DNA from: Prochlorothrix hollandica PCC 9006 = CALU 1027
GTDB taxonomy: Bacteria; Cyanobacteriota; Cyanobacteriia; Prochlorotrichales; Prochlorotrichaceae
Assembly (NCBI RefSeq): GCF_000332315.1
Contig: NZ_KB235941.1
Location: 1,096,106-1,131,934 of the forward strand
Reading direction: 5' to 3'
DNA: 35,829 nucleotides
Part shown: piece after piece, positions 15,247 through 17,897 of the stretch
How positions within the stretch are numbered: the first letter of the stretch is position 1
Layout: every line of letters begins with the position of its first letter
The notes under the pieces: generated by a model
What the model was told of the DNA's origin: nothing
The model's database searches: none
What the model saw: only the letters and a program-made list of their open reading frames with translations
Made by a program: the position numbers and the translations under genes

Positions 15247-15600
15247 GATCCCCGGTTTCTTTTGGGGGAAAGCCAGGGTTTAGCGAGAAAAGGGACAGAA
15301 ACCGGGAATCTGTGTTCCTGAGATCGATCGGCGGGGGGGCCAAGATTCCCGGTTTCTCTGGCAGGATTTGTGAGATAATTGGCTTCGGTTGAGAAGAAAC
15401 CGGGAATCTAGGGAGAAATCGAGGATCCCCGGTTTCTTTTGGGGGGAAAGCCAGGGTTTAGCGGGAAAAAGGACAGAAACCGGGGATCTGTGTTCCTGGA
15501 ACCGATCGGCGAGGGGCCGAGATTCCCGGTTTCTCTGGCAGGATTTGTGAGATAATTGGCTTCGGTTGAGAAGAAACCGGGAATCTGGGGAGAAAACCGG
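15247..15600. repeat. Two tandem copies of a 177-bp repeat built on AGAAACCGGGGATC
   Basis: Copies begin at 15247 and 15424 with GATCCCCGGTTTCTTTTGGG and agree almost throughout, including GGACAGAAACCGGG(A/G)ATCTG, GATTCCCGGTTTCTCTGGCA and GGATTTGTGAGATAATTGGC. Within each copy the GGTTTCT and AGAAACC blocks face each other, giving several possible hairpins. Short frames across it encode repeated peptides but are shadows. A related cluster lies at 28153-28500. The repeat fills the space between the DUF58 and kinase genes. Confidence 0.85.
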
Positions 15601-15615
15601 GGGTGGGGGGTGATT

Positions 15616-15643
15616 TTTCAAAAAATTTTTCGCGCTTCGCGCG
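15616..15643 (-). terminator. Possible terminator or hairpin after the kinase-FGE gene
   Basis: On the minus strand, about 80 bases after the stop of the kinase gene, CGCGC-GAA-GCGCG forms a 5-bp GC stem (15631-15643), followed by AAAAATTTTTT. The short stem and interposed A run make it a modest terminator. It could equally be the structured element found downstream of DGR variable regions. The bases between it and the stop codon are AT-rich and show nothing else. Confidence 0.35.
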
Positions 15644-15722
15644 GGGAGAAGAGAGTAAAGATATATGAGTATATAGTGATAAAGAGAAAGAGTGTAAAGG
15701 GATATGAAGTCCTGGGGGAAAA

Positions 15723-15833
15723 CTACTCCAGAACCACACGAAAACCGTTGAAGTAGTTCCGGTTAACGCGCAGATGCCTGTCCCGGTCTGCCGAGCGAGT
15801 GTTCCTAGCGTTGAAGCTCCAGGAGCCACCCCG
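15723..15833 (-). other. Candidate DGR variable region at the 3' end of the kinase-FGE gene
   Basis: The last 36 codons encode RGGSWSFNARNTRSADRDRH followed by LRVNRNYFNGFRVVLE. The positions that vary in known FGE-type DGR targets are here agc, ttc, aac, aac, gac, gac, aac, aac, tac, ttc and aac. Each can be derived from an AAC codon by changes at adenines only, as expected from adenine-specific mutagenic retrohoming. The gene ends just after the conserved GFRVV block, as in many DGR targets. No reverse transcriptase, Avd gene or template repeat is in the window, so this would be a distant target. The pattern may also arise in an ordinary FGE domain with C-ending codons. Confidence 0.4.
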
Positions 15834-17897
15834 CAGCACACGATTAGTACCCTCACGATCGTCGGGTAGTACATTTGTTTTAGATTGTGTCCACTCAATA
15901 CTCCCATCCTGTTTCAGGGCTTCCGGCTTGGCTCCATAGCTCGCGTGCCACTCGTCCAAGCACCATTCCCGCACATTGCCGTGCATATCGTACAAACCCC
16001 AGGAATTAGCCGGAAATTGACCTACAGGGGTTGTCTGTTGCCGATGTTCCCCCTCAGGAGCGTTGCCATAGGGGTAATTGCCGTTATAGTTCACTAAATC
16101 TGGGGTGATGGTTTCCCCGAAGGAGAAGGGGGTTTGGGTTCCAGCGCGGCAGGCGTATTCCCATTCGGCTTCCGTGGGCAGGCGGTAATTGCGCCCGGTA
16201 CGATCGCTTAGCCGCTGGCAAAATTCCACTGCATCATCCCAACTCACGTCAATCACCGGTTTATTGGGATCCACAAATTTACTCTCGGAGTTTGTGGCGG
16301 GGTTGGTTCCCATCATGGCTTGATACTGGGCTTGGGTGATTTCATACTGTCCCATCCAAAACTCACGGGGGAAGTTCACCCGGTGCTGGGGGCCTTCATC
16401 AGAATCGCGCTGAACCTCATCATCCGGCGAACCCATCAGAAAATCCCCCGCCGGAATTTGCACCAAAGGCAGCAACACCCCGCCCCCCAAATCCTCCAGC
16501 CACCGGGTCACCGTTACAGACTCCCGCCGTCCCCCGTTGCCCAAAGAATCCAGCCCCGTCACCACATCCACCGCCACCACTTCCGACCTCAAACCCGCCA
16601 CAGCCCCCTCCGGAGACGGTTCCGGGAACGGTTCCGCTGGCGGGGGTGGCTCTGGGGCTGGGATATCCTCTGGAATCGCTTCTGGGGAAGGAGACCCATC
16701 CCCTGGTGCGGGATCTTCAGTCACCGTCCCCGGATTATCAAATAACCGCGACAGCAACACCCCCCCCAAAGTCACAACCCCCAACCCAACAAAAGTGCGT
16801 CGGTTCAGCAACTTAATCTGAGCAGAAGACTTGGGGCGCGGCGGCGCTACGGGAGGCCGGGGGTTCCTGGGGGCTGGAGGCTGGGGAGGACGAGGAGAAG
16901 GTGAGGCGGGGACTGTCCTGGGGGTAGGAGTTGGTGGAGGACTCGGCACCGTGGGAATTGGGGTTGGAGGTCTGGGAGGACGAACCGGCGGCGGCGCAAC
17001 AGACGACCCACCGGGCAAAACCCTTAACCAATCCTCCATGTGCTGGGGGCGCTGGTGGGTTTCCACCTGCAAACCCCACAGGATTGCATCACACAGGGAC
17101 GAACTCAGCCCCCCGTTATACTGCTGCGGCGGCTCCAGCAAATCGCGCCCATGCTTCAATATCGACAACTCCCGATTGCTCCCCTCCGGTGGCACCCGCC
17201 CCGTCACCATGCAATACAAAGTCGCCGCTAGGGCATAAATATCCGTATAGGCTCCCCGCTTGGCCTGGAGATCGTACTGCTCCGGGGGCGCAAATCCCGG
17301 CGTATAAAATTGGGTATGGGTTTGGATCACATCCTGGCGAAACTCCCGCGCAATGCCAAAATCAATCAGCACCGCCTCCTGCTGCCCTGAAACCCCATTG
17401 CGCCGCAGCAAAATATTATCGGGCTTAATATCCCGATGGACCAACCCTTTGCCATGGGCTACGGTTAAGGCTTCCCCCACCTGCCGGATATAAATCAGGG
17501 CTTCCTGCTCGGAAAGGCGCTGTTGGGGCTGTTTTTCCAAATAAACAGCCAAATCTTCCCCCTCCACATAATCCAGGGGCATACATTGCAAACTCAGGGT
17601 TTGCCCCCGTTGCTGGGGATGGGGCACAGTTTCCTGGAACAGTTCCCCCACCTTGACCACATGGGGATGGGTACATTTAGCAAGCTTGATCGCCTCATTA
17701 ATAAAGTCCTGCTGGAACTCCCCAAAGTCCCCCCGCTTTTGAATCTCATCCCGCAGGGTTTTGATCACGATTTTTTCGTCTTGGCGATCGCCCTGGCAAA
17801 TTTCCGCCAGGTAGGTAATGCCGAAGCCCCCTTCCCCCAAGACCCTCAAAATCTTGTACTTGCCCTTATTAACCCGTTGCCCCGCTGCCCAAGCCAT
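15723..17897 (-). CDS. Ser/Thr protein kinase fused to a formylglycine-generating-enzyme-like (FGE-sulfatase) domain
   Basis: The protein has 724 residues. Residues 12-285 are a Hanks-type kinase: GEGGFG (21-26), lysine in VIKTL (K46), HRDIKPDN (154-161, catalytic D156) and DFG (179-181), with APPEQY in the activation segment. A proline-rich linker (about 290-355) leads to one membrane helix (RRTFVGLGVVTLGGVLLSRL, about 365-388). A second acidic, proline-rich spacer precedes an FGE-sulfatase domain of C-type-lectin fold (about 475-724): IPAGDFLMGSP, YEITQAQYQAMMGTNP, PVIDVSWDDAVEFC, YRLPTEAEWEYACRAG, MHGNVREWCLDEW, LRGGSW and a terminal GFRVVLE. The kinase is probably cytoplasmic with the lectin-like domain outside. 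The ending matches cyanobacterial kinase-FGE fusions, some of which are targets of diversity-generating retroelements. Confidence 0.92.
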   Translation of the reverse strand: MAWAAGQRVNKGKYKILRVLGEGGFGITYLAEICQGDRQDEKIVIKTLRDEIQKRGDFGEFQQDFINEAIKLAKCTHPHVVKVGELFQETVPHPQQRGQTLSLQCMPLDYVEGEDLAVYLEKQPQQRLSEQEALIYIRQVGEALTVAHGKGLVHRDIKPDNILLRRNGVSGQQEAVLIDFGIAREFRQDVIQTHTQFYTPGFAPPEQYDLQAKRGAYTDIYALAATLYCMVTGRVPPEGSNRELSILKHGRDLLEPPQQYNGGLSSSLCDAILWGLQVETHQRPQHMEDWLRVLPGGSSVAPPPVRPPRPPTPIPTVPSPPPTPTPRTVPASPSPRPPQPPAPRNPRPPVAPPRPKSSAQIKLLNRRTFVGLGVVTLGGVLLSRLFDNPGTVTEDPAPGDGSPSPEAIPEDIPAPEPPPPAEPFPEPSPEGAVAGLRSEVVAVDVVTGLDSLGNGGRRESVTVTRWLEDLGGGVLLPLVQIPAGDFLMGSPDDEVQRDSDEGPQHRVNFPREFWMGQYEITQAQYQAMMGTNPATNSESKFVDPNKPVIDVSWDDAVEFCQRLSDRTGRNYRLPTEAEWEYACRAGTQTPFSFGETITPDLVNYNGNYPYGNAPEGEHRQQTTPVGQFPANSWGLYDMHGNVREWCLDEWHASYGAKPEALKQDGSIEWTQSKTNVLPDDREGTNRVLRGGSWSFNARNTRSADRDRHLRVNRNYFNGFRVVLE

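Follow-up and report, generated by a model that had tools for sequence, protein, structure and literature searches.

The window, meaning the whole stretch of 35,829 nucleotides of Prochlorothrix hollandica PCC 9006 analysed here, contains a gene in which a Ser/Thr kinase is fused, through a hydrophobic segment, to an FGE/C-type-lectin domain. The codons at its 3' end resemble those of a variable region (VR) of a diversity-generating retroelement (DGR). The question raised by this locus is whether these codons were written by a DGR and, if so, from which template.

The fusion gene (15723..17897, minus strand, as for the other features of the gene and its 3' flank) codes for 724 amino acids, as judged from its ORF, translation and Pfam matches. 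The kinase domain occupies residues 14-285 (17043..17858; Pfam Pkinase, 4.3e-34) and contains GEGGFG, VIK, HRDIKPDN and DFG, as a Hanks-type Ser/Thr kinase does; by these motifs it appears intact. Besides a proline-rich linker, the protein carries a hydrophobic segment found by hydropathy scan at residues 368-386 (TFVGLGVVTLGGVLLSRLF; 16740..16796), with RR just before it, and an FGE-sulfatase domain of C-type-lectin fold at residues 478-722 (15732..16466; Pfam FGE-sulfatase, 1.5e-52). The position of the hydrophobic segment between kinase and FGE domain makes a role as surface receptor plausible, with the topology deduced from this arrangement. Sequence relatives of the FGE domain in the PDB include PvdO (5hha, 4.9e-34) and variable protein 1 of Treponema denticola (TvpA, 2y3c, 1.2e-18); the Pfam match is read as membership in a fold family, and we make no claim of formylglycine-generating activity. 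An AlphaFold model of the domain, based on an alignment of 23 of the 80 homologue loci together with two paralogues and the window, reached a mean pLDDT of 62, with residues 164-239 below 50, and is too weak in the VR to be used. The seven neighbouring ORFs that were scanned (TRCF-type helicase, DUF58, transglutaminase, class V aminotransferase, SNF2 helicase, glutamine amidotransferase and DUF2887) look like housekeeping or generic genes. Just downstream of the fusion gene, at 15247-15595, a 177-bp unit is present in two head-to-tail copies matching at 93%.

The candidate VR (15738..15830) lies within the last 36 codons of the gene, at the 3' end of the FGE-sulfatase domain. Between GGSW and GFR there are 24 codons: AGC, TTC, AAC, GCT, AGG, AAC, ACT, CGC, TCG, GCA, GAC, CGG, followed by GAC, AGG, CAT, CTG, CGC, GTT, AAC, CGG, AAC, TAC, TTC, AAC. 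The gene then closes with GGT TTT CGT GTG GTT CTG GAG and the stop codon TAG (15723-15725), so that it ends two codons past GFRVV. The first-pass annotation, made from the sequence alone, had regarded this region as a DGR target on the ground that its hypervariable codons can be derived from AAC by adenine changes and that the gene ends directly after GFRVV. Both descriptions are accurate: AGC, TTC (twice), GAC (twice), TAC and AAC (five times) are all found, and the stop is where it was said to be. Other codons of the stretch, for example ACT, CTG, GTT and CAT, are unreachable from AAC via adenine changes alone.

How much weight such codons can bear was assessed in homologues with exactly 24 codons in the same stretch; L152 and L153, which have TR-like repeats, were left out of the non-cyanobacterial group. 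The window has NNY in all ten codon columns in which at least three of four cyanobacterial templates (TRs) have AAY. The same full score is reached by 20 of the 24 homologues with the downstream motif described below, the window being one of these 24, by 10 of the 16 cyanobacterial homologues with the pyrimidine tract only, by 3 of the 13 cyanobacterial homologues with neither cue and by 7 of the 18 non-cyanobacterial ones. FGE genes devoid of DGR cues thus show NNY as well, and the AAC/NNY pattern taken by itself is a weak discriminator; we have set aside codon statistics as proof of a DGR target.

The genome does possess a DGR. Its locus (C9:100.6-104.1 kb) consists of two FGE targets, bAvd, RT and the template TR-A, and lies on the same contig as the window gene at a distance of about 1.0 Mb. 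The RVT_1 match is at C9:102031-102672 and its translation contains IGNLTSQ and YVDD; bAvd is at C9:102911-103219, and the genome gave no second match to it. The reverse transcriptase with Avd that the first-pass annotation proposed to look for was therefore found, together with templates and dispersed FGE/CLec targets. A second RT, on contig C6, was rejected as a DGR RT, since its best PADLOC match is Drt4 (1e-116), which leaves one DGR-type RT found in the genome. This Drt4/Drt6-like defence RT (L002:667-1782, minus strand) is listed with a TTG start, its profile match begins only at about position 170, and it is perhaps incomplete at the 5' end; an ORF beside it looks transposase-like by inspection.

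There are 19 matches to the FGE domain in the genome, a fragment at TR-B among them, and their 3' ends sort into classes. Measured against TR-A, the three VRs of class A are changed at 10, 13 and 11 of 25 adenine sites and at 0, 0 and 3 of 84 non-adenine sites. A second template, TR-B (L178:530-800, i.e. G000 C4:225529-225799, the same as L021/L201), has three dispersed class B targets: the VRs of L015, L016 and L017 differ from it at 15, 10 and 13 of 32 adenine sites and at none of 91 others. The VR of L020 is identical to that of L017; that of L018, also of class B, has 14 changes at adenines and two at other sites. TR-B is located on another contig than the DGR RT, and neither RT nor Avd was found adjoining it. 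Class C comprises four VRs and class D two, and blastn of the genome returned no template for either. Class E and the VR of the window, class F, are singletons.

VR-bearing proteins of this genome are of diverse build. One kinase of 922 amino acids (L182:6236-9004, plus strand) has two tandem FGE/CLec domains, each with its own VR and motif at the end. Other N-termini include a caspase (L179), a NACHT C-terminal helical domain with HEAT (L173) and TPR (L176), and one protein (L172) has no further Pfam match. Two class B genes on different contigs, L176 (C1:1488354) and L187 (C12:83438), encode 1060 and 164 amino acids and share an identical VR, which reflects either recent duplication or an assembly duplicate.

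In our search for a template of the window VR we made use of a feature of the templates themselves. Directly downstream of cyanobacterial DGR templates lies an RNA of about 155 nt which is conserved and shows covariation. A covariance model of 155 positions was built from four TRs (L001:925-1076, minus; L178:646-800, plus; L189:1325-1486, minus; L100:5421-5580, plus). In these four sequences 96.7% of 151 cells are paired, a figure inflated by derivation of the structure from the same alignment, and 20 of 38 pairs show two-sided changes. None of 500 shuffles scored as high on four measures and two did on a fifth, pair types; on this covariation the module is a structured RNA. The model also detects TRs outside its training set, namely L152 (4e-7) and the incomplete TR of L099 (0.023), and may serve as a template finder. 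Rfam at gathering thresholds gave no match for the window or for the loci of TR-A and TR-B.

No template for the window VR was found by any of these routes in the assembly, which comprises 13 contigs, has an estimated completeness of 99.16% and contains some masked stretches. A pattern allowing adenine-only differences and up to three mismatches matched the gene itself only. With the covariance model, run up to E 10 (150 of 461 candidates scored), the only hits were TR-A and TR-B, two of the templates from which it had been built, with E-values of 3.7e-39 or lower. Five matches were obtained with the pattern GGNTCNTGGAAYAAY; two of them are TR-A and TR-B, and the other three were rejected as a third template, as they encode no VR-like peptide in the one frame that was read. 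A repeat matching the end of the gene with mismatches at template adenines, which the first-pass annotation had suggested searching for, was accordingly not found in the assembly. Direct comparison with known templates was no more successful. Over the 24 codons, the VR of the window differs from TR-A at 10 of 24 adenine and 21 of 48 non-adenine sites (44%), from TR-B at 17 of 31 and 22 of 41 (54%), from the foreign TR of G038 at 11 of 27 and 16 of 45, and from that of L099 at 13 of 28 and 16 of 44. Against none of these four templates are the changes enriched at adenines (Fisher p 0.46-1.0). The failure to find a template, the lack of adenine enrichment and the singleton status of class F, which leaves no second VR to show the adenine-only rule, count against a genuine VR.

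The DNA behind the gene tells more than its codons. In classes A and B, VR/TR homology stops at AG[N]ACT, which reads AGGACT in the VRs, AGCACT in TR-A and AGTACT in TR-B. The switch from G in the VR to C in the TR recurs at two further cyanobacterial loci that contain both repeats, L099 and L139 (TGGACT/TGCACT). The AGGACT form is not universal, the VRs of L100 having AGGATT or AGGGTT with ATGTCT in the TR, and L106 having AGGGCT. We infer that AGGACT and its C or T copies form an IMH/IMH* pair. The IMH of phage BPP-1 differs from its TR copy. VR genes of this genome share a 3' layout of GG[T/C]TTTCG, AGGACT motif and CCCTTT tract, several of them having in addition a GC hairpin with an A/T run. 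The window possesses the same elements: CCCCAGGACTTC, the putative IMH core with the VR-type G, at 15706..15717; CAGGACTTCATATCCCTTT with a pyrimidine-rich tract, which recurs behind VR genes of classes C and D, at 15684..15714; and a GC hairpin (CGCGC-GAA-GCGCG) followed by an A/T run at 15620..15643, which may be a target-site hairpin, a terminator or both. All of them lie beyond the stop codon, and coding constraint is thus no explanation for them.

Within 240 kb, made up of the window and stretches picked around FGE genes and hence enriched in VR loci, [CG]AGGACT[CT] occurs at most 45 nt from the stop codon in 15 distinct VR genes, the window included, and at 2 of 252 other ORF ends. GG[T/C]TTTCG picks 17 ends; of the two lacking the AGGACT motif, one belongs to an FGE gene of a different type (L174), the other to an unrelated ORF. 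The pattern CAGGACTYCNTANCCCTTT is matched perfectly six times in 5.65 Mb, each time behind a VR gene and once behind that of the window, with no match for a reversed-pattern control; with two mismatches allowed, four more matches appear elsewhere in the genome. The hairpin with A/T run has five matches in the 240 kb, likewise all behind VR genes and with the window among them. Both of these patterns were written after the window had been seen, which makes their exact-match status generous. Compared with shuffled DNA, the best hairpin behind the VR has P of 0.00-0.03 in 9 of 14 cases (0.03 in the window) and of 0.27-0.83 in the other five.

Sister genes bear on the origin of the VR as well. 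Over the 600 nt preceding the VR, L012 shares 75% identity with L013, a gene of class D, and 57-63% with the other genes of class C; even so, it carries a class C VR. The closest paralogue of the window gene upstream of the VR is the tandem-CLec kinase L008 (68%), whose VRs belong to class C, while that of the window is F. By these comparisons, VR classes are decoupled from gene ancestry and VR cassettes appear to move; gene ends rewritten independently of gene ancestry are the expected outcome of homing from templates. When the VR with its flank is compared by blastn with the genome it comes from, the best match other than itself is the flank of a class C VR (73%, 2.4e-10). A blastn of the VR against 388 genomes of the same class, with E <=1e-6, gives a single non-self match: a template, 76% identical, which adjoins an RT (RVT_1, 6.9e-18) and bAvd (2.5e-10). 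An FGE domain with about 50% identity also occurs in Microcystis phages of LMM01 and MaMV types (records H1-H9), where it is annotated as a kinase or as a hypothetical protein.

Several explanations have to be weighed against this evidence. The gene could be an ordinary FGE-domain kinase that was never diversified, its NNC codons arising from NNY codon use of polar and aromatic residues and its flank being a duplicated terminator block. Ten of the 31 homologues that are either cyanobacterial with neither cue or non-cyanobacterial have the full NNY score too, no template was found, adenines are not enriched among the changes, and the 3' flank could have been inherited through gene duplication with the VR itself never rewritten. 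It is harder to reconcile with a motif at which the homology of VR and TR stops in classes A and B, which has G in the VRs where the TRs have C or T, which is rare behind other ORFs and which the window has kept though it no longer codes, or with the decoupled ancestry of gene and VR in sister genes. We regard this explanation as unlikely, though it is the most serious of the rivals.

Still less probable is that the gene is an active remote target at present, with its template hidden in an assembly gap or masked stretch. The fragmentation, estimated completeness and masking of the assembly leave some room for this, and blastn gave no template for classes C and D either, the former of which does look as if written from one. 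The templates of all four VR classes from C to F would nevertheless have to lie in what the assembly lacks; the RNA model gave the two known templates and, up to E 10, no others; and the stop codon now precedes the motif. Writing of the VR in trans from TR-A or TR-B with drift added is scarcely credible. The fold and motif are common to all, and 41 of 72 nt are identical to TR-A; the non-adenine sites, however, differ as often as adenine sites for both templates, which led us to reject direct descent, while class A and B VRs differ from their own TRs at only 0-3 such sites.

The best reading is that the window encodes a protein of kinase-TM-C-type-lectin build which serves, or once served, as a remote DGR target and whose template has been lost. 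We consider it probable that the 3' end of the gene is a genuine DGR-type VR, written at least once, with a template gone from the assembly. Of the original proposal of a DGR target, the part resting on a DGR in the genome and on the common 3' target-site layout stands, and the part that called for a template and for adenine bias against the four TRs finds no support. In the mechanism that we propose, template RNA with its 3' structured module would be reverse transcribed by RT-Avd with adenine errors, and the cDNA copy would home into the VR beside the IMH, altering the ligand-binding face of the CLec domain. The CLec face of the window protein would have been written in this manner at least once. 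Its template would later have been lost, probably retired rather than missing from the assembly; the stop codon now used precedes the motif and leaves the motif, pyrimidine tract and GC hairpin as non-coding, putative target-site DNA downstream. As the cognate template is absent from the assembled genome, the VR is probably frozen as a selected, putative binding site, which would be coupled via the membrane segment to the cytoplasmic Ser/Thr kinase so that the CLec domain controls the kinase. Past adenine mutagenesis, membrane topology and ligand sensing are all putative.

TR-B retains its structured module although no RT was found beside it and the genome gave one DGR-type RT in all, which points to an RT acting on it in trans or to the fairly recent loss of one nearby. 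Because this RT-less template on another contig keeps a covarying structured RNA, templates may be independent, replaceable cartridges. Tentatively, one RT-Avd pair would serve separate template modules in this way, and their turnover would have left classes C-F frozen yet re-targetable. If so, receptor kinases, caspases and other proteins of these classes, that of the window included, would be frozen binding-site memories with their landing sites kept. The genome offers a compact case in which to ask how receptor kinases, caspases and NACHT-like proteins gain, lose and share templates with a single DGR-type RT. In practice, 3' target-site DNA is a better test of a DGR target than VR-like codons and can flag retired targets without a template.

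The literature already describes DGR targets of kinase-CLec build, targets remote from the RT and leftover VRs, and the window gene is a further case. Among the closest known systems are the cyanobacterial remote variable proteins with Ser/Thr kinase and CLec domains described by Vallota-Eastman et al. (2020, PMC7517822). These share with the window an N-terminal Hanks-type kinase, a C-terminal CLec with the VR at the 3' end and paralogues dispersed far from the RT, and by the 50% identity rule of that paper the window VR, judged on its identity to TR-A, would count as a remote target. Unlike them, the window has no TR found to match at non-adenine sites, and its putative IMH lies past the stop codon. 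Autoinhibition released by ligand, or substrate selection, is proposed there for kinase-CLec proteins. In laboratory Nostoc punctiforme, according to PMC12691664, DGR targets undergo low-level adenine mutation. For phage BPP-1 of Bordetella, Guo et al. (2011, PMC3240598) describe a short element at the VR end with an inverted repeat downstream, as in the window; the spacer is 4 bp there, whereas motif and hairpin are about 60 nt apart here, and the function of the window element is putative. Remote CLec targets matched by a distant template, some DGRs acting in trans and some VRs for which the genome holds no perfectly matching template are also reported for Thiohalocapsa PB-PSB1 (Dore et al. 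2024, PMC10907252), where, in contrast to the window, diversification was observed in natural populations, and where antigen sensing in conflict systems is proposed for such proteins. Treponema denticola SP32 (PMC4891356) has a leftover remote target of another DGR type; as in the window's genome, the target gene has been kept although the TR present there is of a different type. It differs from the window gene, for which no matching TR was found, in that the matching type of TR occurs in another isolate, with 19 of 21 changes at TR adenines.
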